Shown here: piece by piece, positions 5,292-47,490 of the stretch
Position numbering within the stretch: position 1 is the first letter of the stretch
Layout of the letters: the number at the start of each line of letters is the position of its first letter
Source: Chlorophyllum brunneum
Lineage: Eukaryota; Basidiomycota; Agaricomycetes; Agaricales; Agaricaceae
Direction of reading: 5' to 3'
DNA: 64,000 nt
Assembly: GCA_963576785.1 (NCBI GenBank)
Contig: OY756142.1
Location: 2,356,001-2,420,000, forward strand
Program-made: the position numbers and the translations under genes
The notes under the pieces: generated by a model
Seen by the model: only the letters and a program-made list of their open reading frames with translations
What the model was told of the DNA's origin: nothing
Database searches by the model: none

Positions 5292-5347
5292 GCCGCAAAC
5301 ACGGTACACTGGCGCACCCTCAGCCTGGATTACGTCAGACCATCCTC
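5292..5347. promoter_or_regulatory. Bidirectional promoter between PSF3 and the mitochondrial-type gene
   Basis: The ATG codons of PSF3 (-) and the 129-aa protein gene (+) face away from each other across 56 bp. No TATA box or clear initiator is seen. The divergent arrangement itself is the evidence. Confidence 0.35.
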
Positions 5348-5850
5348 ATGCTCTACCTTGTCAGAAATATCGCTCGTCCACTCTCGGTCCAACCCAGGAG
5401 GGCTTTTCATCTCACCCCGTATCGCCATGCTGCAGAGAACAACAAGGAGGCTTTCTTCAGCGCATTCCAGAACACCACCGTCTTTCACAAACTCGCCAAC
5501 CACCCCGAGGCGGTCGCCGCGCTCGAAAACTTTGCCAAATTGTTGCAAACCAAAGGTCCCACCCCCTAGGCGCATGGCCAATATGTACTCACGTACGTCC
5601 ACAGGCGTCGACATTTCCTCAGGAAAGCCTCCATCCACACTGCAGATGGTCAAGCTAGCCTCGAGTTCAGAGTTCCGTGAGAGTGCGAAGCGTGTAGGAG
5701 AAGAACTAGAAAAGGCTGGGGTGGACTTCCAGTCCAAGGTTAGTGGCCATTATTTATCCTCTGGTACATATGTTAACCGCTGGCGTGTAGGAACTGATGC
5801 AGGAGATGATGGACCTCATGAAGCTCAAAAATTCCCCAGAGTCAAAGTAG
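5348..5850 (+). CDS. Small probably mitochondrial protein of unknown function
   Basis: Three exons (5348-5555, 5605-5738, 5803-5850) with introns of 49 and 64 nt give 129 aa ending NSPESK. The first 28 residues (MLYLVRNIARPLSVQPRRAFH) are rich in Arg and hydrophobics with no acidic residue, like a cleavable mitochondrial presequence. The rest is Ala/Lys/Glu-rich and probably helical: NKEAFFSAFQNTTVFHKLANHPEAV, GVDISSGKPPSTLQMVKLA, and FRESAKRVGEELEKAGVDF. No catalytic motif or membrane helix is visible. It resembles small conserved agaric proteins of unknown role, but I cannot assign a function. It lies 47 bp upstream of the TFIIIC gene on the same strand and divergent from PSF3. Confidence 0.78.
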
Positions 5851-5897
5851 ATTCACGTGATAGGTAGCACTGATCTATACACTCCGTTCTTTCCTCC

Positions 5898-24457: not shown

Positions 24458-24775
24458 TCAGTTGGCCCAAAGTTCAAGAGCTTTGTTGGTATGCCAATCA
24501 TGGTTGAAGCACTTTTTCCAGAAGAAGCACTTGTTACGATTGGATGCGAGATGATCTTTGCCACAATTGATACATATGGGCTTATGGAGGCAAAGCTTGC
24601 CAGCCAGCATGGTAGTGATGGGTGGGGTGGCTTTTGTATTGCCCTTGTAGCAGGCAGCAAATGAGGGGTGGTTGATGGTGGTATGTAGGCCTTTACAATG
24701 TGTACACATATTGAGGCAAAATTGGCATTTGAGGACAGGATGACCCCAACAACAATATTTAGAGCAGAAGGGTAT
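24458..24775 (-). pseudogene. LINE2 ORF1 C-terminal zinc-knuckle region
   Basis: Reads on the minus strand with regularly spaced Cys/His: CQFCLNMCTHCKGLH, then CINCGKDHLASNRNKCFFW, ending in the frame that precedes ORF2. The upstream (ORF1 central) part is missing; the sequence is cut by the 5' LTR of Copia B. Confidence 0.65.
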
Positions 24776-25058
24776 TGTGTATATACCCTTTTAATGGACT
24801 TAGCTATCCACTTCACTTTTGTTACATAATGTGTCATGTGACACTTGTGTATTTTTGGACATTTCTGTTTTGTCCACCTTAGTCTCATTTTGCAATACTG
24901 AGGTAAGTATACCTAATACTCTTTTTGTTTCTAATCTTACTTATATGTCTACCTAGTATGTTAACTCAACTCTAGATATATTTACTACTCAATACATAGT
25001 CTTGTTTTGCAATACTGAGTGTGTTAACTCAACTCTAGATCCCTACCACTTGTTTCAA
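24776..25058 (+). repeat. 5' LTR of Copia B
   Basis: Begins TGTGTATATACCC and ends CTTGTTTCAA. It contains two copies of the internal repeat GTTAACTCAACTCTAGAT. The 3' LTR (inverted, 37160-37443) has the more complete ends TGTTGGGTATATACC...GTTTCAACA. Confidence 0.8.
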
Positions 25059-25060
25059 TG

Positions 25061-25072
25061 GGTTATGGGCCT
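25061..25072 (+). other. Primer-binding site of Copia B
   Basis: GGTTATGGGCCT directly after the LTR, the same initiator tRNA-Met anticodon-arm complement as in the other copia families here. Confidence 0.65.
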
Positions 25073-25154
25073 TGCCTGCCTTTAATCTTTGATCAGACCT
25101 CGAAATCACACTTGTTTACATTCACATTCACTCTGACTCCTCACATTCCCATCA

Positions 25155-26106
25155 TGTCAGATTCTGCTACATCTTTCCAGGCCAGTAGATCAAATCAACT
25201 TTATGACATTCCATTACTCAAAAATGATGGTAGCAACTTCCAGATGTGGAAGTTCCAGATTATCACTGTCTTCCAGCTGCAAGAACTGCTCAACATTGCA
25301 ACTGGCTTGAGGCTATGCCCTCCAGTCATTTCTGGTGATGAATTTGCTATTGCCAAAAACCATGTTACCATCAAAACATGGAAATGTCATGACCTCAAAA
25401 CCCAGGCTCAAATTTGCTTAACACTCAAAGATAATCCCTTGAGTAGTATCCTTCTTGCTACTTCTGCTGCCAAAGTCTGGGATAAACTTCATTGTCACTA
25501 TGAAGGAAAGGGTCAGAACACTATCGCTGTACTCATCTATGAGATCTTCCGCAAGACTCTCTCTAATGAGATGTCCATAGAGCCACAATTAAACGAAATC
25601 ACAAAGCCTATATTCTCTGTACACTTGGCCAAGACCTCTCCAACTGTATTATCACTAATGCTATGCTTAATTCACTACCTCCCTCATACTCTGGTCTCTG
25701 CACTTTACTCAATGTCCCCAGTGGTGCTAATAGCTCTGGCCTCACCACTGATCTTCTAATCAGTCATGTTCTTACTGAGGAGAAAAACCTCAAATATGGA
25801 ATATCACAAGTTGCCTTTATTGCCTCTACCAGGCCTAAACCCAAGTTCTCTGGTCACTCCAGTATAAACGGTGATGGGAAGAAGAAGGTGAAATGTCACT
25901 ACTATAAGAAGAAAGATCATATCAAACCAGAGTGTAGGAAGATGAAAGCAGATTTGGTTGCAAAGGAAGGGAAGGCTAGTGAGAAAAGTGGGAATATGTC
26001 AGCTAACATAGCTATAGTCAGAGAGGATGAGAAAGAGAAAGTTATTTGGTTGTTTGTGGCTGATGCATTAGTTGGAAAAGGGGAGATGTCATCAAAGGGA
26101 TTGTAG
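25155..26106 (+). pseudogene. Copia B gag (UBN2-like), frameshifted
   Basis: MSDSATSFQASRSNQLYDIP opens a copia Gag: LLKNDGSNFQMWKFQI, then AAKVWDKLHCHYEGKG. Around 25660 the frame shifts to LPPSYSGLCTLLNV. A zinc knuckle remains as CHYYKKKDHIKPEC near 25896, in which the second Cys of the CX2C pair is Tyr, so zinc binding is probably lost. Confidence 0.8.
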
Positions 26107-29100
26107 ACTCAGGTACTTCATCACACATAAGCTCTTGTCGCAAGTGGTTTATTACATATCAGGAACTTTGGGAGCCTTGCCATGTTTGGCTCGGTGATGA
26201 TTACTACATCCTTGCCACAGGGGTTAGTCAAGTCCATTTCACTGTTTCCATCAACAACCAAAACTCTGACTATATCATCCCTGATGTTTACTATATCCCT
26301 AAGCTCAGCAACAACCTCCTCTCCATCTCTACCCTCAGTCAACGTGGTTACAAGCTCAAGTTCACAGGGTCTAGTTGCCAACTTATCAAAGATGGTCAAA
26401 TCATTGCTACCGCTTATGAGAAAGGAAATCTTTATGTTTTAAACTCTTTCCCTTTCATCACAAAACATGCTTACATTGTTACTGCTGATGATATCAACTC
26501 TATCCTTGACTCCATTGATGTCTCTGACCAAGTCTCTAAGGCCAACTCTCATCATGATTTGGCCCTCATTGCATCCAACTCATCATCTAGCTCTCTCTCT
26601 ACCTAGCATTGTTGCCTTGGTCACATCATGCTCCGATCTGTCCAGAAGCTGTTTCAGCAGAAGATGGTGAAGGGTATGCATCTTACTGATGATAAAGACC
26701 ATGATTTGGCTACCTGCAAGGCCTGTCTTGAGGGTAAACAGACTCGGGCTCCGATCCCTAAGAAGTCCGATGTCAAGAACCCCTCTGTGTTGCACAGGGT
26801 TTATTCGGACCTTGTTGGGCCCATTGAGCCATGTGGTAGGAGTGGTAAACATTATTTTATGACATTCCTGGATGGATATTTGCATTTCCTTAAGGTTGTC
26901 CTACTCAGGTTGAAGGATGAGGCTGAGGAGCAGATTAAGGCTCTTGTTGAGAGGGCTGAGGTTGAAACTGGACGTAGAGTTAATTTCTTCCATTCTGATG
27001 GAGGGGGAGAGTATTCTTCAGAATCACTCTGACACTGGTTCCATGCTCGAGGCATTCACCACAAGTTTACCAATACTGATACTCCCCAGGAGAACGGCTC
27101 CGCTGAACGCATCAATCGCACCATTATTGAGACAGCCAGGTCCATGCTCAGAGATGCGGATCTCTCTGAATCTTTCTGGACTTATGCCGTCCCTTACGCT
27201 GCCTACATTCTCAACCGAGTCCCCACTTGTACTTTTGCCAATGACATCACTCCTCACCAGGCCTACACCGGAAACAAGCCATCCATTGCTCACCTTCATG
27301 TCTTTGGATGCGATGCTCATGCACTCATTCCCAAGCACAAACGAGCCAAATTTGGCTCCAAATCCCTTCACTGCACCCATCTTGGTTATTCTCAGCAGAG
27401 GAAGGCCTACATCCTCATTCATCGTCCCTCTGGTCGACTTTTTGAGTCCCGAGACGTTCGTTTTGATGAGGGGAGTGAGGTGCAGCATTCCAGGGTTATT
27501 ATCGATGCATTTTCCAACAGCACAGATGCTCAGGACGACGAAAATCCGATTTTTCATGTCAAGGATGAAGAAGATAAAGAAGGTTCGAACTAGAACGACT
27601 ATAACTCCACAGCCGATGGTGCGATCGCTATGAAACAACCTGCGGTCGATAGCGCTGGTCAAGACGTTTCGAATGAGCCCGCCAGCGTGACGCAGAACGA
27701 TCGCGATACATCTCCATCTCGAAATCCTCCTTTTTCTCCCTCTGAACACTCCGAACGCTCTACAGCAAGAAAGGCGACTCGCGTTGTCAAGCGGACGTCA
27801 GATTCGAATTCGCGGACCTCGAAAACGGGGGTACATACCTCCAATGCATCTGTCAATATCGGAGATGCTGCCAGGGCACCCACTTCTCCTTCTCCCTACC
27901 CCATTCCTATTCCACCTCCTGAAATTCGTCGTTCTTCGCGAAATCGTCGTGCGCCTACACAGGATGACGATCCTAGGTATCAACGAAGCTCATATCAATG
28001 AGTTTCGAGCGTTTAAAAGCGAAGAGTCACCATGGAAGAGGAGGAAGATGTAGACATACCAGATGTGGAACAGGATGTCTCTGGACCTGCTCAGGGTTCA
28101 GTGGGCATTGAGACCGCTCAAACTGCATCTCTGGACTGTGACCCACTCACATATGAGGAGGCTATGTCTCATCCGGATGCTGCTCTGTGGAAAAAGGCCA
28201 TGGCTGAAGAATTGGACAAGTTTGTGAAGAGGGAGTTATTCACAGAGGTTGGGAAGCCTACAGGCCATTGTGTAGTTGGCTGCAAGTGGGTATACAAGCG
28301 GAAAGTCAGAGCTGATGGACAAACCAAACGTTACAAGGCCCGATTAGTTGCCCAAGGATTTTCACAGGTCAAAGGTGTTGACTACACTGAGACATATGCC
28401 CCTGTCACCAGGCACTCCACCATTCGCACTCTCCTTTCTCTTGCTGCCAAACACCAGTGGCATAATCACCAAATGGATGCTAAGTCAGCATTCCTCAATG
28501 GTGATCTCGATGAAGAGATTTACATGCAGATTCCCCTTGGCGTCCCTGCTCCGAACGAGTAAGTCTGGCTGCTCAACCGAGCCCTCTATGGCCTTAAGCA
28601 GGCTGGCCGTGAGTGGTACAAGAAGGTTAGAGTTGAACTTGAGGGCCTAGGTTTTGCTCAGAGCACTGCCAATCACGGTGTTTTTGTCAAGAACAACAAT
28701 GGCTCCCTCATGATCATTGCAGTCTATGTCGATAACTTCCTCATTTTCTCTGGTGACCTCGACAGTATTGCTCGGACTAAGGCTGACCTTCACTCACATT
28801 TTGAAATGAAGGATCTTGGTGAAGCTCAGTGGATTCTCCAGATGGAGGTTACCCAGAGTAATGATCATTGACATATTATCCTGTCCTAGTTACAATATAT
28901 TGAAGATGTCCTTGAATATCATGGCATGGCTAAATGCTCCCCAGTCCCTACTCCTATGGTCACTAGTCTCTCCCTCCCTGTTCTCTCCAGTCCAGAGATG
29001 GATGTTACCAAGTACCAAAGGATGATTGGTACTCTGATGTATGCTATGGTCTGTACCTGGCCAGATATTGCCTATGCAGTGGGCATTCTCGCTTGCCACG

Positions 29101-29396
29101 TCTCTGCTCCTAGCAAGGTTTATCTCACTGCAGTCAAGCAAGTTTTCCACTACCTTCACAGTACATCAGACTTCAAGCTTGTTTATAATGGTGATGATAG
29201 TCTTATTGACCCTGTGGTCTACTCCAACTTGGACTGGGCTAGTGATCGGACTAATCGCAAATCTATCACTGGCTATGTCTCTACTCTATCTGGTGGTGCT
29301 ATCACTTGGGCTTCTCAAAAGCAACAATGTATCTCCACATCCAGTACTGAGTTTGAGTTTGTTGCTGCTGCTAGTGTTAGTCAGGAAGCTCTTTGG
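26106..29396 (+). pseudogene. Copia B pol (PR-INT-RT-RNase H), truncated by Copia C
   Basis: Protease motif VDSGTSSH near 26107. Integrase: zinc-binding HCCLGH at about 26608 with CKACLEGKQ at about 26720, catalytic YSDLVGP near 26803, HSDGGGEY at about 26992 and ENGSAERINRT near 27092. RT starts near 28190: CKWVYKRKVRADGQ, MDAKSAFLNGDLDEEIYMQ, LNRALYGLKQAGREWYKK. The catalytic box is YVDN (28725-28736) rather than YVDD. RNase H includes YSNLDWASDRTNRKSITGY and stops at the Copia C junction after EALW. Stops are present at 26606, 27029, 27591 and 28561. Confidence 0.88.
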
Positions 29397-29967
29397 TGTT
29401 GAAGTTTCGGACATATTCTAGAAATAGACTATGAAGTCATTATAATAATAATAGACTAATCTGTTACTTTCTAGTAACTTCATTCTGTAGTAACTTCCTA
29501 TGAGTTGCTCTGCATACAATGAGAGTCATAAGTACTTGATAGATTATTCTACATAGTACCAATGACTAGATACTATGTTCCATAGTACTCCGCAGGCACT
29601 ACACCGCAGTTAAAAGGAGTCATAAGGAACAATCTATGCTTTACTAGTATTTTATGTAGTATGACTTGCCTATGTTACAATATGTATATAAACCCTATGT
29701 AGCAGACCTAGTTCTGCATCTTGTTCAATCAAACAACCTCTTCACCATTGCCTATCTCTTTGAGTACAACACCTCAATCGATTTAATCAACTTTGACCTC
29801 TACCTCTCTAACACCAACCGTTTTATTAATAATATCTGTCTATCCAAATTATCTTTCTATAGGTATTAGATAGAAGCTTATTATCTCGGTGAGTAGACCC
29901 TACGTTCTCTCCCACTGTGTTTACTGCTGTCTCCAGCAAACAACTCATTACGATCGTTTCCTCAACA
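29397..29967 (+). repeat. 5' LTR of Copia C
   Basis: TGTTGAAGTTTCGGAC...CTCAACA, 571 bp, with a TATA box (GTATATAAACC) near 29685. It pairs with 35925-36495. Confidence 0.92.
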
Positions 29968-29980
29968 GGTTATGGGCCCC
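29968..29980 (+). other. Primer-binding site of Copia C
   Basis: GGTTATGGGCCCC immediately after the LTR, complementary to the initiator tRNA-Met anticodon arm. Confidence 0.75.
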
Positions 29981-30126
29981 AGTAGCCTTACCGATGGTTA
30001 AACCATTATCATCCCCTCTAACCGAGATAGGATGATAGGACTTTACCTGACAGAGTTATCCTTGCATTTGATCATTGCTGATATGAGAATTTTCTTCTAG
30101 AAAGAAATACACTTGACGAAGATATT

Positions 30127-31878
30127 ATGTCTACCAATAATATCGTTGCTGGTTTACCTAAGCTTAATGGGCCTAAGAACTATGCGTTCTGGTCTAGAAG
30201 GCTTTAGGATGCCCTAACCCTCATTTCTGTCACTGGGTCTGACCAGTCCGGATGGACTGTGACAAACCAGGATCTCTCTCCTGCAAATCCTACCGCTTTA
30301 ATGGAGGAAGATAGAAGGAGAGAACAATTGAGAGGCCAGGCATTGGCTGTTATAAATAGCACCTTACCTGATTCCCTATTACTCCATGGGCATGATGCTC
30401 CTGGATTGCTCTGGGATGACTTGAAAACCCGCTTTGGGACACCTTCTCCTGCCGCGGTGTATTCAATTCTCCAAAGAATGCTGCAAAAGTGCATTTCAGG
30501 GAATCAAGATCCAGCAATGGATCTAGCTGAATTGAGAACAATGGCTTCTCAATTAGAAATAGCTAAAGTAAGATTGCCAGAAGTCCTTGGCGCGATGATC
30601 GCTTTGAATGCATTACTACCTGATTGGAATGCTGTGGCACAAACAACATTGGCAAATAATCACGATGTTGTAGATATGACCTGGGAGGTAGTTCAGCAGA
30701 CTATAAATGCTGAATGGTCAAGATGTGAAGGATCCAGACCCTCCATGTCTAACCAACAAGCTTCATTTGCCACTACTGCCAACTACCAAGCTTGCCCTCA
30801 GGGCAACTTCCCCAGGACTTGCCCTGGACCACCCTGGAACCACTTCCACCCTGGAGGCAATACCAGGGCCCAACCTGCAAGAGGTCCTCACCACCCTGCC
30901 AATCCAAGTGGACAGCCCCCTCAGCCTTCTCCTCCTACTCCTACCTGGATTAACGTCCAGAAGAAGAAGAAGAAGCCCAAGAAGCGCCAGGGTAAACCCC
31001 AAGCCCACATGGCAGAAGCCATGGCAGGCTTCGCCGCTGCCACCGAACCAGTGGTCTATCACTTCACAGGTCCAGGGATGACCCCCTTCGACCTGATGAG
31101 GCGCATGGATGTGCCTCGACCCATTCCCACTCCCGCTCCTCCAACCACTCGTGTACTAGTGAGTGAGAGACCAAAGCCTCTTACTTGGGTTAATCCCAAG
31201 AAGGTCCAGCAGGCACGAGAGAATGCTCGTGCTGAGCTTGAGAAAAAGGTGCATGCTGAAGCATGAAACTTATGTTTTACTGCCCTTCTCGAGAACTCAC
31301 TGTGGATTCAACAGGTGACCACCTGGTGCGACCGCGTCACTAGTCCTTTGCCCATGCAAATGGCAAAGAAACATGCCCTTGATCGTTATGATCGACGGAT
31401 GCACAAGGTCTCTCATCCCCGCGCCCAACAAGGACAATCAGTGACACCTCCCGGTGCACCTTCAGTTCCTTCTGGTCACCCCCCAGGTTGCACCTGCGAG
31501 GGACACATGAGAGTGAGTAAATGGTTCACTAAGAATAGTAACCCCAATATTAATGTGACCCGTGTCCACTTCTCTTTCCTCTTACCCCTTGATTCGCCAT
31601 ATACCTTATTGATTTCTCCCAAATTTGGGAATAAACTCAATTTGGCTATGCATCATGTGGTAAAGATCCCTAGCATGGACTCTGTCACCCGGGGCGACTC
31701 CCTTGAACCTGGAGAGGTTTGGCTGTACTACCTTCCTTCTCCGGAGGAAATAGTAGCTCCGGCTGTTAGAACCTATGAAGAGGAATTTCCTCCTCTTCCT
31801 AGGGCCTCCCCTCCAATGGAGCACTTTCAGAGTAAGAGATACTCTCTTACTCAGAAGAACAAGACCATTGACAGGTGA
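30127..31878 (+). pseudogene. Copia C gag
   Basis: ATG at 30127 (MSTNNIVAGLPKLNGPKNYAFW). A TAG at 30205 replaces a CAG found in Copia D, and a TGA at 31264 replaces a CGA found in D. Between them the frame is open: LAELRTMASQLE, Pro-rich stretch, and a basic KKKKKPKK patch near 30960. A last TGA at 31876-31878 (after KNKTIDR) is shared by both copies. No CCHC knuckle is visible. Confidence 0.82.
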
Positions 31879-34800
31879 CCTGCCACACTTACAGTGTTGG
31901 TAGACGAAGCTTTCAAGCGGCTTGAAAGTGAGAAGGAGGTCGACAACCTCATGGTACTGGCTCAGGATGTCGCCTACGACATCCGCAACCCCAGGAACTC
32001 TGCGAACGTCGCAGGACCCTCTTCTGGGCCTCTCCCAAAGTCCCCGAAGTCCAAACCATTTGCTTTGGCACCTCAATCTGAGGTGTCTCTCGGACTTTTG
32101 TCTACCGACTACGGGAGCGACTACAAGAAGAAGGGAGGAGCTGGGTATGTGATTGATTTGATCTCAGATACTCTTACTAACCCTGATACACAGTCCTATC
32201 ACCAATATGCCGACCAGCCATCTTCACAAGAAGAAGGGCAAGGGCAAGGGGAAGGGACGTTGGGGGACAGGCATGTAATTACACTATCAGGATCTTTAGG
32301 ATCCCATAATAATGTTGTTACGAGCAAATGGATAAATGAGAAGTGTTTTAACACTTCTCAACTTTTTTGTTACTCCACGCACATGCCCAATCAGTTTTTA
32401 AGAGTACCAGATCAAATTAGATCTCGATTGCTAAGCAATGATCAAATTATAACACTACTAAAAGAATACAGTGACGTATGGTTATTAGACTCAGGGGCAT
32501 CATGTCATTATACCCCTTATGCAGAAGACTTCATCAACTTCGAAGAACTCAAAGTTTCGATCCCAATTAAGACTGTAGGAGCACAAGGCCCCTACCTTAA
32601 TGCGGTTGGTCTTGGCGCAGTTATGCTAAAGCATAGAGTCTATAATGGGAAGACTGACAGCGTTCAACCAACGCAGATATTAATATATCCAGTCTTCCTT
32701 CTAAAAGGAACCTCTGAATGACTAATGTCAGTAGGACAGTTATGCCAGGATGGCAAAACTGTTAGAACAAATGCCAATGAATCAGTAGTTGTTGATAGCG
32801 AAGGAAATGCTATTCTTCAAGCATATCCTTCAGCAAGTCATAATACTACTTTACATTTTGTTAATACCAAAATTGTACACTCGGAACAAGCAGCTATGAC
32901 TGCGGATCCGATCATTGGCTACAAAGTTGTACATGTGAGATTAGGACATCCCTCTAATCGTATCCTCAATCATTTTGAGAAAAATATGATTGGGTTTACT
33001 CCAGTGCGGATTCCCAAGCAAAAACCAGTCTGTGACAGTTGTGCCAAGGGAAAAATGCACCAGAAACCCTTTAGAGAGAACCCTACACGCACAAAGCATC
33101 CATTCGAAAGAATTCACTCGGATTTAGTTGAACTTCCGATTCTTTCTTACCATAAATTTAAATGGGTCATGACCATAATGGACAACTTTTCCTCTCATAG
33201 ATGGATTCGCTTCCTCCATAAGAAATCAGAAGCAGCAGAAGAAATGAAAAATTTCATTGTATCAATATGAGATTAAATTAAAATATCTCTGCACTGATAG
33301 AGGAGGAGAGTATGCAACTGACAAGTTGCAATCTCATTTGCACTCATTAGGGATTATACATGAGACTAGTGCACCACACATACACCAACAAAATGGTCGA
33401 GCGGAATGCTTGAATCGAACTCATGATTTTCCTTGGTTGAACATCAGATAGGAAAAACTATCGTTTCATGAGGCACCTAAATGGAAATGTAATCTATACA
33501 TCTCCAACAGCCGTATTCAGCGAAGAACACTTTCCTAAATGTGTTGGGAAGAAGTGAGAAGAACGGATGAACCAACCATCATCTTCTACTTCTCGAAGTA
33601 CACCTTCAGAAGTTATTGTCTTCCATGCTCCAGATCCATCTACTAGTTTACCCTTTGATAAACCGCCAAGCCCTATTCCCCGAACTTCTCCCGAAAGTTC
33701 TCCAGAAGATAGGACTTATAGATCTGTTCATGGACGAATTCCAACTCCTTTCCCTGAACCTAAGAAGAATAAAAGAAAGGGAAAAGCACCAAATATTGAT
33801 ACTGATGTTCAGGAGGAGTGGGATGGTATTGTGCAAAACATTCTCTTTCCACCAAGAGAAGCACAAATACCAGAAAACGATGACAGTGATGGATTATCAT
33901 ATGCTGATCCACCCAATCACCCTAAAGGTCCGAACCATCTGCCTTCTCAAAGAGATAATCCGGATGTACAACCATTCATACCCTATACCCCTGTCGAAGA
34001 TGATCGGGATGCTGGTCCTTCTGTACCATGAGGTCACTCGGATCGAATACCAGTTCCTGAAATACCTCAGAGACTGCAAAGAACCAGAAAAGTACCTGAA
34101 TGTCCAGGAAACTTCTATGATTCTACAAAGCATCCGACCAAAATACTCCAGGACTATGAAATGTTCCAACCTCCTAAGTCAAAGTTGACAAGTTCTACAA
34201 GTAGACTTGTTAGACAAATTCGATCAGAGGCTCCCAAACCTGGAATAATCGATAGACGTTCTCAGCATGAAGTCTACATTAGAAGACTTATGCAGAGAAG
34301 GAGGAGTAGGGATGATCGATTATCTGTGCACTCAAAAAGTCAAATCACCATTAGTTCCTATTTCTTTCAAGGATCTAAATCGACTACCATCAGAAGAGAA
34401 ATCTAAATGGTGGAAAGCGTGCTTAGAAGAGTTAAATTCACTCAAAGAAAGACATGTTTATGACTTAGCTAAACTTCCGCCTGGAAGAAAAGCTGTCAAA
34501 AATAGATGGGTCTTTACACCCAAATCAGACGGTCGATACCGTGCTCAACTAGTAGCAAAAGGATTCTCTCAGATAGAGGGAATTGATTATGATGAACTAT
34601 TTTCACCAGTAGTCCGTTATGAGACAGCACGACTCATATTTGCAGTTGCTGCCCTCAACGATTGGGAGATGCTCAGTTTAGATGTTAAAACTGCTTATCT
34701 CTACGGAAAACTGGATGAAGAACTCTATATGGAACTTCCAGAAGGTTTCAATACAGGTCATGGTAATTTGGTTTGGAAATTAAACCGAGCCATTTATAGA

Positions 34801-35889
34801 CTAAAGCAATCCAGACAACAATGGTGGAAGGAATTGACTAAGTCAATGACTGACCTAGGATTTGTCTGATCCAAACTAGATGCTGGAGTCTATTATTACT
34901 ACGACCCTGAAACCAAAGAGCTTATTATAGCTCTGGTCTATGTAGATGACTCAATGTTCATCGGAATTAGAGGCTCTAGACTTTTACATGAGAAGCAAGT
35001 ACTCTTTATGAAGAAATGGGAATGCCGAGACCTTGGTCCAACCAAAGAGTTTCTTGGCATGAAAATTTCACGAAATCCTATAAACCGATCAATTACCCTA
35101 GACCAAATGGATTATCTAGGAAAAGTCCTCGATCAATTTAAAGTTATTGGAAAAGAAGAAATTCCATTACCAAATGGATTTATCTTTGAATCCAATAAAG
35201 GAAAAGCAACACCTGACTTCATAAAGAGGTATCAACAGTTAGTAGGATCAGTTATGTATCTGATGATAGGCAGTCGGCCCAACATAGCTTTCACCACTGT
35301 CAAATTATCACAACATATGACCAATCCCACTAAAGCACATTACAATGCAGGCTTACATTTGCTAAAGTATCTTAATGCTACTTGCAAATATAGAATTACC
35401 TATAATGGAAGTTCTATGCAAGGCCTTAATGCTTTTTCCAACTCTGATTGGGCTGGTGATCCAATTAGTCGTAAATCTGTAACTGGATATTTCTGTTTAT
35501 TAGCCAGCGGAGCTATTACTTGGTTAAGTAGGAAACAGAAAACTGTTACATTATCTTCCACTGAAGCTGAGTATATGGCTTTGTCAGATTGCAGTCGACA
35601 ACTTGTTTGGACTGTCAATTTGTTGGAAGAAATTGGTATCCAATCATTGGCCCCTTATCTCTTCAGTGATAATGAAGGTTCAATATTTTGGGCCAAAAAT
35701 CCAGTAACAGAAAAACAATCAAAACATGTCGACATCAAATACCATTACATTCGTGATTTGGTAGAAGATGGAAAGATTGAAATATTCTCTATGAAAGGCA
35801 CAGAAAATCCTGCCGATATTCTCACAAAGAATTTAGACAAAATTAAATTCAATCTATTCCAACCTCACCTTGGCTTGACATTTGAGTAA
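31879..35889 (+). pseudogene. Copia C pol, with a 248-bp integrase deletion
   Basis: Protease LLDSGASCHYTPY near 32485. Integrase zinc-binding region HVRLGHPSNRIL and CDSCAKGKMHQ (33030), catalytic HSDLVELP near 33115, DRGGEYATDK near 33295, then a deletion joined at GAACTC (33417-33422). RT: NRWVFTPKSDGRYRAQLVAK, VKTAYLYGKLDEELYMELPE, and an intact catalytic YVDD at 34939-34950. RNase H ends at 35889 after AEYMALSDCSRQLVW and KHVDIKYHYIRDLVEDGKIE. Stops at 32719, 33268, 34029 and 34867 add to the deletion. Confidence 0.9.
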
Positions 35890-35924
35890 GTAAAAACTCT
35901 ACATCAATACAGAGCAAGGAGGAG

Positions 35925-36495
35925 TGTTGAAGTTTCGGACATATTCTAGAAATAGACTATGAAGTCATTATAATAATAATAGACTAATCTGTTACTTTCT
36001 AGTAACTTCATTCTGTAGTAACTTCCTATGAGTTGCTCTGCATACAATGAGAGTCATAAGTACTTGATAGATTATTCTACATAGTACCAATGACTAGATA
36101 CTATGTTCCATAGTACTCCGCAGGCACTACACCGCAGTTAAAAGGAGTCATAAGGAACAATCTATGCTTTACTAGTATTTTATGTAGTATGACTTGCCTA
36201 TGTTACAATATGTATATAAACCCCATGTAGCAGACCTAGTTCTGCATCTTGTTCAATCAAACAACCTCTTCACCATTGCCTATCTCTTTGAGTACAACAC
36301 CTCAATCGATTTAATCAACTTTGACCTCTACCTCTCTAACACCAACCGTTTTATTAATAATATCTGTCTATCCAAATTATCTTTCTATAGGTATCAGATA
36401 GAAGCTTATTATCTTGGTGAGTAGACCCTACGTTCTCTCCCACTGCATTTACTGCTGCCCCCAGCAAACAACTCGTTACGGTCGTTTCCTCAACA
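35925..36495 (+). repeat. 3' LTR of Copia C
   Basis: 571 bp, near-identical to 29397-29967, preceded by the polypurine tract. The right flank is GCTAT, not the expected TTTGG. Confidence 0.92.
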
Positions 36496-36733
36496 GCTAT
36501 CTCTAGTACAACTTCTTTCCCTGGAGTGAGTGGCTCAATACCACTCCCCTCACTTATCTGTCAGATTGAGGTAGCCACAGGGGCCTTGGCTGATGAGAAA
36601 CCTGCTGACTCTGAAGAGGTGGAGAGAGATGATGAGGAGGACAACGATGTGGACATTGGGAGTCCTGAAAAAGATGAGAGAGTGGAGGATAAATATATCC
36701 AGATAGTTGACTCAGTCATTTTGGTGACTAAAT
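36496..36733 (+). pseudogene. LINE ORF1 N-terminal fragment (inverted piece)
   Basis: Open in one frame: TTSFPGVSGSIPLPSL, then an acidic run (SEEVERDDEEDNDVDIGSPE) to VILVTK, where an LTR of the Copia B family begins. Joined with the minus-strand piece at 45111-45314 it forms one continuous LINE ORF1 N-terminus (GTRAI/SSTTS across the junction). That shows it was contiguous with that piece before Copia D inserted and the region inverted. Confidence 0.6.
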
Positions 36734-36854
36734 TGTTGAAACAAGTGGTAGGGATCTAGAGTTGAGTTAACACACTTAGTATTGCAAAATGAGACTATGT
36801 ATTGAGTAGTAAATATACCTAGAGTTGAGTTAACACACTAGGTAGATAAGTAAG

Positions 36855-37054
36855 NNNNNNNNNNNNNNNNNNNNNNNNNNNNNNNNNNNNNNNNNNNNNN
36901 NNNNNNNNNNNNNNNNNNNNNNNNNNNNNNNNNNNNNNNNNNNNNNNNNNNNNNNNNNNNNNNNNNNNNNNNNNNNNNNNNNNNNNNNNNNNNNNNNNNN
37001 NNNNNNNNNNNNNNNNNNNNNNNNNNNNNNNNNNNNNNNNNNNNNNNNNNNNNN
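36855..37054. other. Assembly gap (200 N) flanked by a 226-bp duplicated sequence
   Basis: Exactly 200 N. The 226 bp on its left (36629-36854) recur on its right (37055-37280) with three substitutions. This looks like unmerged contig ends or two haplotypes rather than a true tandem repeat. Confidence 0.85.
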
Positions 37055-37159
37055 ATGATGAGGAGGACAAAGATGTGGACATTGGGAGTCCTGAAAAAGA
37101 TGAGAGAGTGGAGGATAAATATATCCAGATAGTTGACTCAGTTATTTTGGTGACTAAAT

Positions 37160-37746
37160 TGTTGAAACAAGTGGTAGGGATCTAGAGTTGAGTTAACACA
37201 CTCAGTATTGCAAAATGAGACTATGTATTGAGTAGTAAATATACCTAGAGTTGAGTTAACACACTAGGTAGATAAGTAAGATTAGAAACAAAAAGAGTGT
37301 TAGTTATACTCACCTCATTATCACAAAATGAGACTGAGGTGGACAGAACAGAAATGTCCGAAAATACACAAGTATCACATGACACATTATGTAATGAAAG
37401 TGAAGCGGATAGCTAAGTCCATTAAAGGGGTATATACCCAACATGCCCACTCACTAAACATGAGTTTACATGAGACCAATAGAGTGAACAAAACCAAAAA
37501 ATTTAATATGACCAAGAGCCTTAGTGAATAAATCAGCAAGTTAATCATGAGTGGAAATGTATGAAGTTGAAATTTCTCCAGTTTCATTTCAGTCACAGAT
37601 GAAATAATACTTGGTGTTGATGTGCTTTGTGCAATTATTAATATTACCAGTGGTGATGAGATCAATAGCACCCTGATTGTTGATACGAAGTAGAGTAGGA
37701 ACAATGATAGAGAGATGAATAGAATCAAGGAGATTTTGAAGCCAAA
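37160..37746 (-). mobile_element. Copia B 3' end, inverted: RNase H tail and 3' LTR
   Basis: On the minus strand from 37746 the sequence reads WLQNLL..., RINNQGAIDLITTGN and TKHINTKYYFICD to a stop at 37589. This is the end of a copia RNase H and continues Copia B exactly after EALW at 29396. The 3' LTR is 37160-37443 (TGTTGGGTATATACC...GTTTCAACA, minus strand). A partial second copy of this LTR (36734-36854) lies across the gap and is probably the same sequence. Confidence 0.85.
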
Positions 37747-38317
37747 TGTTGAGGAAACAACTGTAACGAGTTGTTTGCTGGGAGCAGCAGTAAATGCAGT
37801 GGGAGAGAACGTAGGGTCTACTCACCGAGATAATAAGCTTCTATCTGATACCTATAGAAAGGTAATTTGGATAGACAGATATTATTGATAAAATGGTTGG
37901 TGTCAGAGAGGTAGAGGTCAAAGTCGATTAAATCGATTGAGGTGTTGTACTCAAAGAGATAGGCAATGGTGAAGAGGTTGTTTTATTGAACAAGATGCAG
38001 AACTAGGTCTGCTACATGGGGTTTATATACATATTGTAACATAGGCGAATCATACTACATAAAATACTAGTAAAGCATAGATTGTTCCTTATGACTCCTT
38101 TTAACTGCAGTGTAGTGCCTGCGGAGTACTGTGGAACATAGTATCTAGTCATTGGTACTATGTAAAATAATCTATCAAGTACTTATGACTCTCATTGTAT
38201 GCAGAGCAACTCATAGGAAGTTACTACGGAATGAAGTTACTAGAAAGTAACAGATTAGTCTATTATTATTATAATGACTTCATAGTCTATTTCTAGAATA
38301 TGTCCAAAACTTCAACA
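37747..38317 (-). repeat. 3' LTR of Copia D
   Basis: 571 bp, reverse complement of the Copia C LTR with scattered substitutions. The polypurine tract GAGCAAGGAGGAG (minus strand) lies just inside it. Confidence 0.92.
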
Positions 38318-38352
38318 CTCCTCCTTGCTCTGTATTGATGTAGAGTTTTTAA

Positions 38353-41300
38353 TTACTCAAATGTCAAGCCAAGGTGAGGTTGGAATAGATTGAATTTAAT
38401 TTTGTCTAAATTCTTTGTGAGAATATCGGCAGGATTTTCTGTGCCTTTCATAGAGAATATTTCAATCTTTCCATCTTCTACCAAATCACGAATGTAATGG
38501 TATTTGACGTCGACATGTTTTGATCGTTTTTCTGTTACTGGATTTTTGGCCCAAAATATTGAACCTTCATTATCACCAAAGAGATAAGGGACCAATGATT
38601 GGATACCGATTTCTTCCAACAAATTGACAGTCCAAACAAGTTGTCGACTGCAATCTGACAAAGCCATATACTCAGCTTCAGTGGAAGATAATATAACAGT
38701 TTTCTGTTTCCTACTTAACCAAGCGATAGCTCCGCTGGCTAATAAACAGAAATATCCAGTTACAGATTTACGACTAATTGGATCACCAGCCCAATCAGAG
38801 TTGGAAAAAGCATTAAGGCCTTGCATAGAACTTCCATTATAGGTAATTCTATATTTGCAAGTAGTATTAAGATACTTTAGCAAATGTAAGCCTGCATTGT
38901 AATGTGCTTTAGTGGGATTGGTCATATGTTGTGATAATTTGACAGTGGCAAAAGCTATGTCGGGCCGACTGCCTATCATCAGATACATAACTGATCCTAC
39001 TAACTGTTGATACCTCTTTATGAAGTCAGGTGTTGCTTTTCCTTTATTGGATTCAAAGATAAATCTATTTGGTAATGGGATTTCTTCTTTTCCAATAACT
39101 TTAAATCGATCGAGGACTTTTCCTAGATAATCCATTTGGTCTAGGGTAATTGATCGGTTTATAGGATTTCGTGAAATTTTCATGCCAAGAAACTCTTTGG
39201 TTGGACCAAGGTCTCGGCATTCCCATTTCTTCATAAAGAGTACTTGCTTCTCATGTAGAAGTCTAGAGCCTCTAATTCCGATGAACATTGAGTCATCTAC
39301 ATAGACCAGAGCTATAATAAGCTCTTTGGTTTCAGGGTCGTAGTAATAATAGACTCCAGCATCTAGTTTGGATTGGACAAATCCTAGGTCAGTCATTGAC
39401 TTAGTCAATTCCTTCCACCATTGTTGTCCGGATTGCTTTAGTCCATAAATGGCTCAGTTTAATTTCCAAACCAAATTACCACAACCTGTATTGAAACCTT
39501 CTGGAAGTTCCATATAGAGTTCTTCATCCAGTTTTCTGTAGAGATAAGTAGTTTTAACATCTAAACTGAGCATCTCCCAATTGTTGAGGGCAGCAACTGC
39601 AAATATGAGTCATGCTGTCTCATAACGGACTACTGGTGAAAATAGTTCATCATAATTGATTCCCTCTATCTGAGAGAATCCTTTTGCTACTAGTTGAGCA
39701 CGGTATTGACCGTCTGATTTGGGTGTAAAGACCCATCTATTTTTGACAGCTTTTCTTCCAGGCAGAAGTTTAGCTAAGTCATAAACATATCTTTCTTTGA
39801 GTGAATTTAACTCTTCTAAGCATGCTTTCCACCATTTAGATTTCTCTTCTGATGGTAGTCGATTTAGATCCTTGAAAGAAATAGGAACTAATGGTGATTT
39901 GACTTTTTGAGTGTACAGATAATCGATCATCCCTACTCCTCCTTCTCTGTATAAGTCTTCTAATGTAGAAGCTTCATGCTGAGAACGTCTATCGATTATT
40001 CCAGGTTTGGGAGCCTCTGATCGAATTTGTCTAACAAGTCTACTTGTAGAACTTGTCAACTTCGACTTAGGAGGTTGGAACATTTCATAGTCCTGGAGTA
40101 TTTTGGTCGGATGCTTTGTAGAATCATAGAAGTTTCCTGGACGTTCAGGTACTTTTCTGGTTCTTTGCAGTCTCTGAGGTATTTCAGGAACCGGTATTCG
40201 ATCCAAGTGACCTCATGGTACAGAAGGACCAGCATCCCGATCATCTTCGACAGGGGTATAGGGTATGAATGGTTGTACATCTGGATCATCTCTTTGAGAA
40301 AGCAGATGGTTCGGACCTTCAGGGTGATTGGGTGGATCAGCATATGATAATCCATCACTGTCATCGTCTTCTGGTATTTGTGCTTCTCTTGGTGGAAAGA
40401 GAATGTTTTGCACAATACCATTCCACTCCTCCTGAACATCAGTATCAATATTCGGTGCTTTTCCCTTTCTTTTATTCTTCTTAGGTTCAGGGAAAGGAGT
40501 TGGAATTTGTCCATGAACAGATCTATAAGTCCTATCTTCCGGAGAACTTTCGGGAGAAGTTCGGGGAATAGGGCTTGGCAGTTTATCAAAGGATAAACTA
40601 GTAGATGGATCTGGAGCATGGAAGACAATAACTTCCGAAGGTGTACTTCGAGAAGTAGAAGATGATGGTTGGTTCATCCGTTCTTCTCGCTTCTTCCCAA
40701 CACATTTAGGGAAGTGTTCTTTGCTGAATACGGCTGTTGGAGATGTATAGATTACATTTCCATTTAGGTGCCTCATGAAACGATAGTTTTTCCTATCTGA
40801 TGTCCAACCAAGGAAAATCATGAGTTCTGACTTTGCTGTCAGTTTATTGTCTCTTATCTCTTTTGGGAGAAAGACATAAGCACTGCAGCCAAAGACTCTC
40901 TCCTTGGAGATGTCTGGAATCTTCTGATTCAACACTTCATAAGGTGTTTTCCACATGAGCCGTGATACCAGTGTTTTATTATAGATATGTATTGCATGAT
41001 CTATAGAAAACTCCCACCAACCATCAGGAATACAAGCATGATGCTGCATGGCTTCTGCTTTATCCATTAGAGTTCGATTCAAGCATTCCACTCGACCATT
41101 TTGTTGGTGTATGTGTGGTGCACTAGTCTCATGTATAATCCCTAATGAGTGCAAATGAGATTGCAACTTGTCAGTTGCATACTCTCCTCCTCTATCAGTG
41201 CAGAGATATTTTAATTTAGTCTCGTATTGAGTCTGAATTAATGCAATGAAATTTTTCATTTCTTCTGCTGCTTCTGATTTCTTATGGAGGAAGCGAATCC

Positions 41301-42609
41301 ATCCATGAGAGGAAAAGTTGTCCATTATAGTCATGACCTATTTAAATTTATGGTAAGAAAGAATTGGAAGTTCAACTAAATCCGAGTGAATTCTTTCAAA
41401 TGGATGCTTTGTGTGTGTAGGGTTCTCTCTAAAGGGTTTCTGGTGCATTTTTCCCTTGGCACAACCGTCACAGACTGGTTTTTGCTTGGGAATCCACACC
41501 GGAGTAAACCCAATCGTATTTTTCTCAAAATGATTGAGGATACGATTAGAGGGATGTCCTAATCTTGCATGTACAACTTTGTAGCCAATGATCGGATCCG
41601 CAGTCATAGCTGCTTGTTCCGAGTGTACAATTTTGGTATTAACAAAATGTAAAGTAGTATTACGACTTGCTGAAGGATATGCTTGAAGAATAGCATTTCC
41701 TTCGCTATCAACAACTACTGATTCGTTAGCATTTGTTCTAACAGTTTTGCCATCCTGGCATAACTGTCCTACTGACATTAGTCGTTCAGAGGTTCCTTTT
41801 AGAAGGAAGACTGGATATATTAATATCTGCGTTGGTTGAACGCTGTCAGTCTTCCCATTATAGACTCTATGCTTTAGCATAACTGTGCCAAGACCAACCA
41901 CATTAAGGTAGGGGCCTTGTGCTCCTACAGTCTTAATTGGGATCGAAACTTTGAGTTCTTCGAAGTTGATGAAGTCTTCTGCATAAGGGGTATAATGACA
42001 TGATGCCCCTGAGTCTAATAACCATACGTCACTGTATTCTTTTAGTAGCGTTATAATTTGATCATTGCTTAGCAATCGAGATCTAATTTGATCTGGTACT
42101 CTTAAAAACTGATCGGGCATGCGCATGGAGTAACAAAAAAGTTGAGAAGTGTTAAAACACTTCTCATTTATCCATTTGCTCGTAACAACATTATTATGGG
42201 ATCCTAAAGATCCCGATAGCGTAATTACATGCCTGTCCCCCAACATCCCTTCCCCTTGCCCTTGCCCTTCTTCTTGTGAAGATGGCTGGTCAGCATATTG
42301 GTGATAGGACTGTGTATCAGGGTTAGTAAGAGTATCTGAGATCAAATCAATCATGTACCCAGCTCCTCCCTTCTTCTTGTAGTTGCTCCTGTAGTCGGTA
42401 GATGAAAGTCCGAGAGACACCTCAGATTGAGGTGCCAAAGCAAATGGTTCGGACTTCGGGGATTTCGGGAGAGGCCCAGAAGAGGGTCCTGTGATGTTCG
42501 CAGAGTTCCTGGGGTTGCAGATGTCGTAGGCGACATCCTGAGCCGGTACCATGAGGTCATCGACCTCCTTCTCGCTCTCAAGCTGCTTGAAGGCTTCGTC
42601 TACCAACAC
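38353..42609 (-). pseudogene. Copia D pol (PR-INT-RT-RNase H), full length with few lesions
   Basis: Reads on the minus strand. The first block (42609-41338) holds protease LLDSGASCHYTPY and integrase zinc-binding HARLGHPSNRIL/CDGCAKGKMHQ, and ends in a TAG (41335-41337) where Copia C has TGG. The second block (41334-40213) has DRGGEYATDK, QQNGRVECLNRT and the whole integrase core and C-terminus (FGCSAYVFLPKEIRDNK). RT blocks 40206-39610 and 39408-38353 follow. These are broken by CGA-to-TGA stops near 39608 and 39452, with the catalytic YVDD intact at 39292-39303. RNase H runs to the stop at 38353. No large deletion is seen; this is the best-preserved copia pol in the window. Confidence 0.9.
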
Positions 42610-42624
42610 TGTAAGTGTGGCAGG

Positions 42625-44375
42625 TCACCTGTCAGCGGTCTTGTTCTTCTGAGTAAGAGAGTATCTCTTACTCTGAAAGTGCTCCATTGGAGGGGAGGCC
42701 CTAGGAAGAGGAGGAAATTCCTCTTCATAGGTTCTAACAGCCGGAGCTACTATTTCCTCCGGAGGAGGAAGGTAGTACAGCCAAACCTCTCCGGGTTCAA
42801 GGGAGTTGCCCCGGGCGACAGAGTCCATGCTAGGGATCTTTACCACATGATGCATAGCCAAATTGAGTTTATTCCCAAATTTGGGAGAAATCAATAAAGC
42901 ATATAGCAAATCAAGGGGTAAGAGGAAAGAGAAGCAAATGCGGGTCACGTTAATATTGGGGTTACTATTCTTAGTGAACTATTTACTCACTCTCATGTGT
43001 CCCTCGCAGGTGCAACCTGGGGGGTGACCAGAAGGAACTGAAGGTGCACCGGGAGGTATCACCAATCATTCTTGTTGGGCACGGGGATGAGAGACCTTGT
43101 GCATCCGTCAATCATAACGATCAAGGGCACATTTCTTTGCCATTTGCATGGGCGAAGGACCAGTGACGCGGTCGCGCCAGGTGGTCACCTGTTGAATCCG
43201 CAGTGAGTTCTCGAGAAGGGTGGTAAAACATAAGTTTCGTGCTTCAGCATGCACCTTTTTCTCAAGCTCAGCACAAGCATTCTCTCGTGCCTGCTGGACC
43301 TTCTTGGGATTAACCCAAGTAAGAGGCTTTGGTCTCTCACTCACTAGTACATGAGTGGTTGGAGGAGCGGGAGTGGGAATAGGTCGAGGCGCATCCAGGC
43401 GCCTCATCAGGTTGAAGGGGGTCATCTCCGGACCTGTGAAGTGATGGACCGCTGGTTCGGTGGCAGCAGCAAAGCCTGCCATGGCTTCTGCCATGTGGGC
43501 TTGGGGTTTACCCTGGCACTTCTTGGGCTTCTTCTTCTTCTTCTGGACGTTAATCCAGGTAGGAGTAGGAGGAGAAGGCTGAGGGGGCTGTCCACTTGGA
43601 TTGGCAGGGTGGCGAGGACCTCTTGCAGGCTGGGCCCTGGTATTGCCTCCAGGGTGGAAGTGGTTCCAGGGTGGTCCAGGGCAAGTCCTGGATAAGTTGC
43701 CCTGAGAGTGAGCTTGGTAGTTAGCGGTAGCGGCAAATGAAGCTTGTTGGTTAGACATGGAGGTCTGGATCCTTCACATCTTGACCATTCAGCATTTATA
43801 GCCTGCTGAACTACCTCCCAGGTCATATCTACAACATCGTGACTATTCGCCAATGTTATTTGTGCCACAGCATTCCAATCAGGTGGTAATGCATTCAAAG
43901 CGATCATTGCACCAAGGACTTCTGGCAATCTTACTTTAGCTGTTTCTAATTGAGAAGCCATTGTTCTCAATTCAGCTAGATCCATTGCTGGATCTTGATT
44001 CCCTGAAATGTACTTTTGCAGCATTCTTTGGAGAATTGAATACACCGCGGCAGGAGAAGGTATCCCAAAGCAGGTTTTCAAGTCATCCCAGAGGAATCCA
44101 GGAGCATCATGCCCATGGAGTAATAGGGAATCAGGTAAGGTGCCATTTATAACAGCCAATGCCTGATCTCTCAATTGTTCTCTCCTTCTATCTTCCTCCG
44201 TTAAAGTGGCAGGATTTGCAGGAGAGAGATCCTGGTTTGTCACAGTCCATCCAGACTGGTCAGACCCAGTGACAGAAATGAGGGTTAGGGCATCCTGAAG
44301 CCTTCTAGACCAGAACGCATAATTCTTAGGCCCATTAAGCTTAGGTAAACCAGCAACGATATTATTGGTAGACAT
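42625..44375 (-). pseudogene. Copia D gag, single-base frameshift
   Basis: ATG at 44373-44375 (MSTNNIVAGLPKLNG). The CAG that is TAG in Copia C is intact here, but one C of a CCC run is missing at about 43760 (GACCTCC compared with GACCCTCC in C). The frame therefore shifts and continues as MSNQQASFAATANYQ to 43108. A further stop follows DRYD. The frame closes at the TGA after KNKTADR at 42625, the same stop as in C. Confidence 0.84.
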
Positions 44376-44521
44376 AATATCTTCGTCGAGTGTATTTCTT
44401 TCTAGAAGAAAATTCTCATATCAGCAATGATCAAATGCAAGGATAACTCTGTCAGGTAAAGTCCTATTATCCTATCTTGGTTAGAGGGGATGATAATGGT
44501 TTAACCATCGGTAAGACTACT

Positions 44522-44534
44522 GGGGCCCATAACC
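44522..44534 (-). other. Primer-binding site of Copia D
   Basis: GGGGCCCATAACC on the plus strand, i.e. GGTTATGGGCCCC in element orientation, directly inside the 5' LTR. Confidence 0.75.
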
Positions 44535-45105
44535 TGTTGAGGAAACGACTGTAATGAGTTGTTTGCTGGAGGCAGCAGTAAATGCAGTGGGAGAGAACGT
44601 AGGGTCTACTCACCGAGATAATAAGCTTCTATCTGATACCTGTAGAAAGGTAATTTGGATAGACAGATATTATTGATGAAGTGGTTAACGTCAGAGGAGT
44701 AGAGGTCAAAGTCAATTAAATCAATGGAGGTGTTGTACTCAAAGAGATAGGCAATGATGAAGAAGTTGTTCATTTGAACAAGATACAGAACTAGGTCTGC
44801 TACATGGGGTTTATATACATATTGTAACATAGGCAAGTCATACTACATAACATACTAGCATTGCATGGATTGTTCCTTATGACTCCCTTTAACTGCGGCG
44901 TAGTGCCTGCGGAGTACTGCGGAACGTAGTATCTAGTCATTGGTACTATGTAGAATAATCTATCAAGTACTTATGACTCTCATTGTATGCAGAGCAACTC
45001 ATAGGAAGTTACTACAGTATGAAGTTACTGGAAAGTAACAGATCAGTCTATTATTATCATAATGACTTCATAGTCTATTTCTAGAATATGTCCGAAACTT
45101 CAACA
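44535..45105 (-). repeat. 5' LTR of Copia D
   Basis: 571 bp, same family as the Copia C LTRs, more diverged from its partner at 37747-38317 than the two C LTRs are from each other. Confidence 0.9.
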
Positions 45106-45110
45106 ATAGC

Positions 45111-45388
45111 TCTAGTACCTCTAGCAGTGCATTTGGAGCCAGGATTAGGGGAGCCCAACCTGCTCTGCATAGGGATAGGAGTTTTGTACCAACTTCTAGT
45201 ACCAGATCTATCAGATCCTTTAGATTTAACTTAAGTAGTGACATTTCCATAACCTTCCAGGTTAGGAGATAACATAGGAAGAGGTGGATTAGGGTCCCCC
45301 CATCTACTAGACATGTTTTAGAAGCAATGAAAATACCTTATAGCAAGTTTGAAAAATGATAATAGTAGTAAGAAGTTAAGAAGAGATG
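45111..45388 (-). pseudogene. LINE 5' end with ORF1 start
   Basis: On the minus strand the 5' UTR CATCTCTTCTTAACTTC (from 45388) resembles the 5' end of LINE1 (CATTCCCTTCTTAATC). ATG at 45314 starts MSSRWGDPNPPLP. One stop (TAA) lies about 29 codons in, and the frame continues to the Copia D junction and then at 36496-36733. This may be the 5' part of LINE2, but no target duplication supports that. Confidence 0.55.
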
Positions 45389-46254: not shown

Positions 46255-47490
46255 AAACTCGCCATGATATACTCATATTCTAGGTTCAAGATTTCCATTC
46301 CTACTAATGAAACATCAGTGGCTGGCATCAGGAGGGGCCACCAGATATACCATGTATTGAAGGAGACCAAGTGATTATCTGGAATAAGGTTTCCATGTAA
46401 CATAAGTATGGTATCAAGGTAGTAGATAGATGTTTGAGGGATTTTCTGGAGGTAAGTACAGTGTCTATTCTTGAACCAGTGTCTTATCCTTTCTTTTCAG
46501 AAGCCTGATGCTCCTTTTGGTGGTATTACTGTGGTATTGGGAGGATATTTTTGCCAGACTCTTCCAATTATTATTTATGGATCAAGACAGGATATAGTTG
46601 GTACATCTAAATACTGGAGTACCCTGTGGAGAAAGCTTCAGGTCTACTACTTGGTTCAGAACATGAGGCTGGAAAGAAGTCCTGAGAGTGAGCAGTATAC
46701 TTGGTAGTTGCTGAAGATTGGAGCTGGAAGAGGGTTGGATAATTTGGAGACTATCAAGGTCCTTCACACCATGTTTGTGGAGGACTCTAATGTCTTGATT
46801 GTAGGTATCTATCCTGCAATCTACCAAGGCCACTAGGATGAGTATTTTCTTAAGAGGACTATTCTTGCTCCAGGAAATAATAAAGTTGATAATCTTAATA
46901 CCACCATCCTTGACAGATTTTCTGGTGATGAACATATGCTCAACAGTGTTGACTCTGTTGATCTAGAAGACAATGGACAGTATTATCCTGCAAAGTATCT
47001 CCAGTCATTGAATGTCAGTAATTTGCCACTTGCCAAGTTAGCTCTCAAGCCTGGCTGTCCAGTCATGCTTTTCTGGAACCTGAACCCTGATAATGGACTT
47101 TGCAATGGGACAAGAATGATAGTAGAACAGGTAGAAAGAAAGATGTTGGCATATAGGATTATTAGTAAGGAAACAATGTTTGTAGGACAGATAGTAATGA
47201 TTCCAAGGATTGTACTAGAACCTTCATCAGAGGTACTTCCTATCCCTCTCCAACATTGTCAGTTTCCTATCTAACTTGCTTTTGCAATGATATCAACAAG
47301 TCTCAAGGGTAGTCAGTAAAGTATGTAGGGATTGATTTGCAGATATCTGTGTTCTCTCATGGCCAATTGTATGTAGTATTTTCAAGATGTACATCCAAGA
47401 ATAGGATCAAGGTGTTGTTACCTGAATAGACCCAGCAAAGTAGTAGAACAATGAATGTAGTGTATGAAGAAGTGTTCTGACCACTTGAAC
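46255..47490 (+). pseudogene. Helitron-type PIF1 helicase remnant
   Basis: Fragments in order match the C-terminal half of a Helitron Rep/helicase: YSRFKISIPTNETS near 46270, a GTAAGT...TTTTCAG intron at about 46454-46500, then PFGGITVVLGGYFCQTLPI (46517; the usual GGDFRQ is here GGYFCQ), GSRQDIVGTS and NMRLE. After 46930 follow DNGQYYPAKYLQSLN, LALKPGCPVMLFWNLNP, GLCNGTRMIVEQV and PRIVLEP. The last stretch (AFAMISTSLKG..., near 47284) shows the family SF1 motif with stops. No Rep (HUH) domain or terminal hairpin was found, so it is a broken 3' portion. Confidence 0.7.

Follow-up and report, generated by a model that had tools for sequence, protein, structure and literature searches.

Exchanged target duplications of two facing copia elements point to a small inversion in Chlorophyllum brunneum

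Two copia elements, C and D, face each other in the window (the whole 64,000-nucleotide stretch of Chlorophyllum brunneum DNA that was analysed), and one copy of the 5-bp target duplication of each element lies beside the other element. The order in which the sequences on both sides of each insertion stood before this exchange is kept in paralogous sites of the same genome. We infer that the short segment between the elements was turned round in the organism, and that homologous exchange made the flip. By precedent and from the exactness of the flanks, ectopic recombination between the inverted copies is the best explanation, and in our judgement a probable one.

Results

Two facing elements and their flanks

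The two elements and the 5-mers that border them are as follows.

29392-29396, + strand: TTTGG, left copy of the target duplication of C (a single TTTGG in the paralogues on contigs C5 and C3)
29397-36495, + strand: copia element C, with LTRs at 29397-29967 and 35925-36495 and an RVT_2 domain
36496-36500, + strand: GCTAT, the reverse complement of ATAGC; target copy of the D site, now to the right of C
37742-37746, + strand: CCAAA, the reverse complement of TTTGG; target copy of the C site, now to the left of D
37747-45105, - strand: copia element D, with its 5' LTR at 44535-45105, its 3' LTR at 37747-38317 and an RVT_2 domain
45106-45110, + strand: ATAGC, right copy of the target duplication of D

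Both elements have the features of the Ty1/copia group. The RVT_2 reverse transcriptase was detected in each (Pfam), an integrase was recognised by eye upstream of it in the open reading frames, all four LTRs are 571 bp long and run from TG to CA, and the target duplications are of 5 bp, albeit exchanged in C and D themselves. Facing each other, the elements form 7-kb inverted repeats at both breakpoints of the proposed inversion. They are 95.4% and 97.5% identical in the two main aligned pieces, with 248 substituted sites and gaps of 248, 11, 2 and 1 bp in the alignment; C is the shorter, as 261 bp are absent from it (the gaps of 11, 248 and 2). The substitutions consist of 237 transitions, 146 of them at sites of CpG type in either copy, and 11 transversions, an excess of transitions that suggests cytosine deamination.

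Read in order, the flanks are TTTGG-C(+)-GCTAT and CCAAA-D(-)-ATAGC. As an earlier note on this DNA had claimed, the target duplications are swapped: all four 5-mers match crosswise, exactly, as reverse complements. Given how often each 5-mer occurs in the window itself, a coincidental match of both crosswise pairs has a probability of ~1.4e-6. Elsewhere in the family of C and D, the 5-bp duplications are exact in three of the four other two-LTR elements that were fetched whole, the exception being L036, and the flanks of seven lone LTRs are exact in four, differ by one mismatch in two and are unmatched in one. The exception (C5:2704900-2712450), a full-length relative, has the unmatched flanks CAGAG and AGGAT and is a candidate for another exchange between elements. 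A further element of the family, on contig C9, has CTATT at both flanks. It is the + element of a second facing pair (L044 and L064), the 3' ends of which are ~0.7 kb apart. We considered this pair as another inversion; judged by the + element, which lies inside another LTR and is the one with both ends in the fetched stretch, there is no exchange.

The host element and the inverted centre

The sequences around C and D, and those between them, are assigned as follows.

24773-25060, + strand: 5' LTR of the host copia element B, 92% identical to the reverse complement of 37160-37443
25061-29391, + strand: body of B as far as the insertion of C in the RNase H region
36501-36733, - strand: outer part of the inverted centre, sequence beyond the 3' LTR of B; continuous with 45106-45388 in the paralogue on contig C13
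36855-37054, no strand: assembly gap of 200 N, with an unmerged overlap as its flanks (36629-36854 and 37055-37280)
37160-37443, - strand: 3' LTR of B, lying in the centre as its reverse complement
37444-37741, - strand: rest of the RNase H region and 3' end of B, reversed
45111-45388, + strand: flank to the right of the D site, joined without a break to the reverse complement of 36501-36733 in the paralogue on contig C13

C is inserted in an older copia element, B, the body of which has Pfam matches to Retrotran_gag_2, Pol_BBD and RVT_2, with gag_pre-integrs below the cut-off. The frame of B runs through TTTGG at 29396 (...STSSTEFEFVAAASVSQEALW) and up to there reads ...SVSQEALW. The reverse complement of the centre, read from 37746, starts with TTTGGCTTCAAAATCTCCTT, in which we recognise by eye WLQNLLDSI, continuing the EALW of the B frame. 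The RNase H motif of B was likewise recognised by eye, the piece 28890-29391 having no Pfam match. As the frame resumes in the reverse-complemented centre, where the 3' LTR of B is reversed too, the end of B appears to have been turned round.

The sequences 36629-36854 and 37055-37280, on the two sides of the gap, are the same except for 3 mismatches in 226. Because the contig ends repeat each other in this way, the true centre is ~815 bp long (36501-36854 plus 37281-37741), and the 1.25 kb given earlier for 36501-37741 has to be reduced, as it includes both the 200 N and the 226-bp overlap. The flipped piece contains the 3' end of B and ~230 bp with a counterpart on contig C13, where it lies inside an open frame of 149 codons. 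No contig crosses the centre; each of the two contigs that end there traverses one whole element, from the outer flank to the centre. Among the fetched loci, one other gap of exactly 200 N was found, near the paralogue of B on contig C3, with sides that do not overlap, and a run of at least 210 N stands at the start of L042.

The 5-mers at the two ends of B do not match (AAGGG versus ATTTA), and C13-like sequence follows its 3' LTR (36733-37443). At 24773, the 5' LTR of B interrupts a LINE, other copies of which extend past 24772. B itself may be the product of an earlier rearrangement. A candidate on contig C1 for the missing piece of the interrupted LINE was rejected, as it extends at least 58 bp beyond the site. 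To the right of D, at 46837-47274, there is a fragment with a Pif1 helicase 2B domain, which possibly comes from a Helitron or a Pif1-like gene.

The uninverted order in paralogous sites

Empty sites were sought flank by flank in the window's own genome (38.9 Mb in 14 contigs). For the C site, the left flank up to 29396 abuts the reverse complement of 37746-37281 at C5:515311-516657 and at C3:385615-386321, both of which are paralogues of B with exactly one TTTGG. For the D site, the reverse complement of 36854-36496 abuts the sequence from 45106 onward at C13:1136609-1137126, where the single target copy reads ACAGC instead of ATAGC (one mismatch). Each of the two sites is thus represented by uninverted sequence with one copy of the target. 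On this comparison the three sites, though paralogues rather than one locus seen in a second strain, establish which order was ancestral at each of the two junctions. The inversion proposed in the earlier note accordingly has support at both junctions, from the empty sites in paralogues and from the reversal of the 3' end of B.

Two other matches to the left flank of C were set aside. One, a fragment on contig C1, is not an empty site, departing at the site into another repeat and lacking the right side; the other, on contig C10 (74%), is part of an element related to C and D. Sequence upstream of the C13 paralogue, used as a query, matched only itself. In a paralogue of B, L012 (C1:2065432-2068549), a different repeat breaks in at nearly the base where C is inserted, hinting at a favoured target or at chance.

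Pairing of the LTRs and the place of the exchange

A crossover in the interior of the elements would leave the original LTR pairs split, so that the 5' LTR of C would now be paired with the 3' LTR of D, and the 5' LTR of D with the 3' LTR of C. The LTRs of C and D are paired otherwise. Out of 571 or 572 positions, the two LTRs of C differ at 9, the two 3' LTRs at 17, and the 5' LTR of C and the 3' LTR of D at 24; the counts are 40 for the 3' LTR of C against the 5' LTR of D, 40 for the two LTRs of D and 43 for the two 5' LTRs. Sites that divide the four LTRs two against two favour the observed pairs in seven cases, the exchanged pairs in none and the third pairing in two. Exchanged pairs between C and D were thus looked for and not found, the 5' LTR of C being paired with the 3' LTR of C and not with that of D. 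The test is stated in a passage of PMC2672092, which describes inter-element recombination as being revealed when the two LTRs of an element fail to group together.

The same grouping was recovered in a tree of 43 LTRs, comprising the four of C and D, 36 other full-length LTRs and three more from fetched stretches (40 of 536 first-look candidates were scored, giving the 40 full-length LTRs, namely the four of C and D and the 36 others). The two LTRs of C group together (0.952), then with the 3' LTR of D (0.949); the 5' LTR of D falls elsewhere, in a weak grouping of its own (0.411). The latter LTR is aberrant in one patch only, and the other parts of D that were tested are sister to C.

44642-45058, - strand: patch of another subfamily in the 5' LTR of D (LTR positions ~48-464)

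Among the copies compared, C and D were each other's closest relatives in 11 of 11 partly overlapping segments covering 572-7359, apart from 1701-1840, 4031-4279 and 5301-5499, which lie outside the segments (supports 0.83-1.0). The segment trees held 7 to 22 sequences each, C and D counted, and were built from aligned pieces of at least 600 bp, which leaves out lone LTRs such as L004. Since the oddity of the 5' LTR of D is confined to positions ~48-464 and every segment tested from 572 to the 3' end makes C and D sisters, another copy has probably overwritten part of the outer LTR of D. A sister relationship between C and D is what exchange between the arms would give; common descent could produce it as well.

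The earlier note had predicted a switch point at which C and D each become more like the other. Besides the patch in the 5' LTR of D, none was found inside the elements by sliding divergence, windows against seven other copies or segment trees, and neither this prediction nor the claim of base-level breakpoints within the 7-kb repeats was borne out, as the LTR pairs are unexchanged and no crossover point could be placed to the base. The rise in identity between C and D toward the 3' end (from 95.4% to 97.5%) was considered as a sign of conversion and rejected, because other copies show the same trend.

There is a break in likeness between the two LTRs of C. They differ at 1 of the first 470 sites and at 8 of the 101 sites in the tail (Fisher, 5.8e-6), and other LTRs are evenly divergent over the same two stretches (6.0% and 5.5%). 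The tail of the 5' LTR (29867-29967) thus holds eight of the nine differences, several of them private or nearly private to this LTR. An exchange in the 3' LTR of C, near position 456-471, would fit this break. The tail of the 3' LTR of D is, however, unlike that of the 5' LTR of C (10 of 101 sites differ), so that the evidence for an exchange in the 3' LTR of C is one-sided; a local cluster of mutations in the tail of the 5' LTR is a possible alternative. Taken together, the LTRs make an exchange in the interior of the elements disfavoured and one in the terminal stretches of the LTRs possible.

Discussion

How the segment may have been turned round

If ectopic recombination is the cause, C and D would have inserted separately and facing each other, the former in the older copia element B and the latter just beyond the 3' LTR of B, each insertion making its own 5-bp duplication (TTTGG for C, ATAGC for D). 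A crossover between the inverted copies would then have flipped the centre of ~0.8 kb and moved one copy of each duplication across. Because the LTR pairs are not exchanged, the exchange would need to have occurred near an element end, either in the facing 3' LTRs, within their last ~115 bp, or in the 5' LTRs, within their first ~187 bp; alternatively, the LTRs would have been converted later. The recombination footprint described in the earlier note thus holds as the likeliest cause on account of the flanks and the empty sites, but the exchange of LTRs that it predicts is absent. The unexchanged pairs, the mismatch of the tail of the 3' LTR of D, the unspanned centre and the lack of visible chimerism count against it, and so do the reliance on paralogues for the empty sites and the possibility that C and D are alike by common descent.

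Alternatively, the genome may be unflipped, the assembler having jumped from one inverted copy to the other, most likely where the 3' LTRs adjoin the gap. The 200-N gap lies in a centre that no contig spans, the contig ends overlap by 226 bp with 3 mismatches and yet were not merged, at least 40 full-length LTR copies are present in the genome, and the 3' LTR of C loses its likeness to the 5' LTR ~100 bp before its gap-side end, all of which would suit such an error. Nevertheless, assemblies are expected to have a gap between the arms of a large inverted repeat whichever way the centre points, and each of the two contigs that give the orientation traverses an entire element, starting in the outer flank and reaching the centre. 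Long reads would distinguish C from D by their 248 differing sites and the gaps of 248, 11, 2 and 1 bp, and a jump within the elements is unlikely given that the LTRs of C pair over 470 bp. We consider an assembly error rather unlikely. A matching of the four 5-mers by accident, C and D never having stood in the unflipped order, is hardly credible. The unmatched flanks of B, which indicate that this region may have undergone repeated rearrangement, could be cited in its favour; against it stand the probability of ~1.4e-6 and, strongly, the three paralogous sites that join exactly the exchanged flanks.

It is also conceivable that two sister cDNAs of one particle were inserted together, each bridging both targets ~0.8 kb apart, with the 5' end of C and the 3' end of D at TTTGG and the 5' end of D and the 3' end of C at ATAGC. 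The segment would then be flipped without any crossover between elements. Such an integration predicts exactly the four flanks observed, the unexchanged LTR pairs and the sister relationship of C and D. For LTR elements it corresponds to the 'hybrid insertion' that is weighed as an alternative for Galileo in PMC2775673. On the other hand, it does not predict the break in likeness between the LTRs of C at 471-571, and the internal segments of C and D are 2-5% apart, too much for one batch unless the copies were already different. We know of no precedent for it among LTR elements; a full-text literature search for such cases found nothing, which proves little. We regard joint insertion of this kind as quite improbable.

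Comparison with known systems

In Arabidopsis and rice, inter-element recombination leaves intact LTR retrotransposons with unmatched 5-bp flanks. Unlike those cases, C and D lie side by side with all four flanks readable.

According to parts of its published account (PMC2775673), Galileo of Drosophila buzzatii is a DNA transposon with 7-bp duplications, and its inversions (2j, 2q7 and 2z3) are polymorphic and chromosomal. As in 2z3, C and D are copies in opposite orientation with exchanged target duplications, and uninverted sequence has a single copy of the target. In contrast to Galileo, C and D are LTR retrotransposons, only ~0.8 kb is flipped, and the uninverted order is known here from paralogues alone. 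The crossover of 2z3 was placed by means of chimeric copies with exchanged TIRs, and their chimerism was argued against the hybrid insertion model (same source, in part), whereas the LTR pairs of C and D are unexchanged and chimerism was not seen in them. A partial parallel comes from fission yeast, likewise a fungus with LTR elements, in which mosaic elements are attributed to recombination between copies in a section of PMC10085805. An inversion mentioned in that section is ascribed to possible recombination between 5S rRNA genes, and not between elements.

Significance

Transposon-bounded inversion is an already known kind of event, of which C and D are a further, small and good example. 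The 16-kb stretch is a compact case, in which each of the four flanks is readable and paralogues preserve the uninverted order at both sites. If the two elements were instead integrated crosswise, a segment would have been inverted by one integration event without recombination between elements. The case indicates that the pairing of LTRs and the exchange of target duplications can disagree, and such disagreement matters both for dating by LTR divergence and for separating ectopic recombination from crosswise integration.
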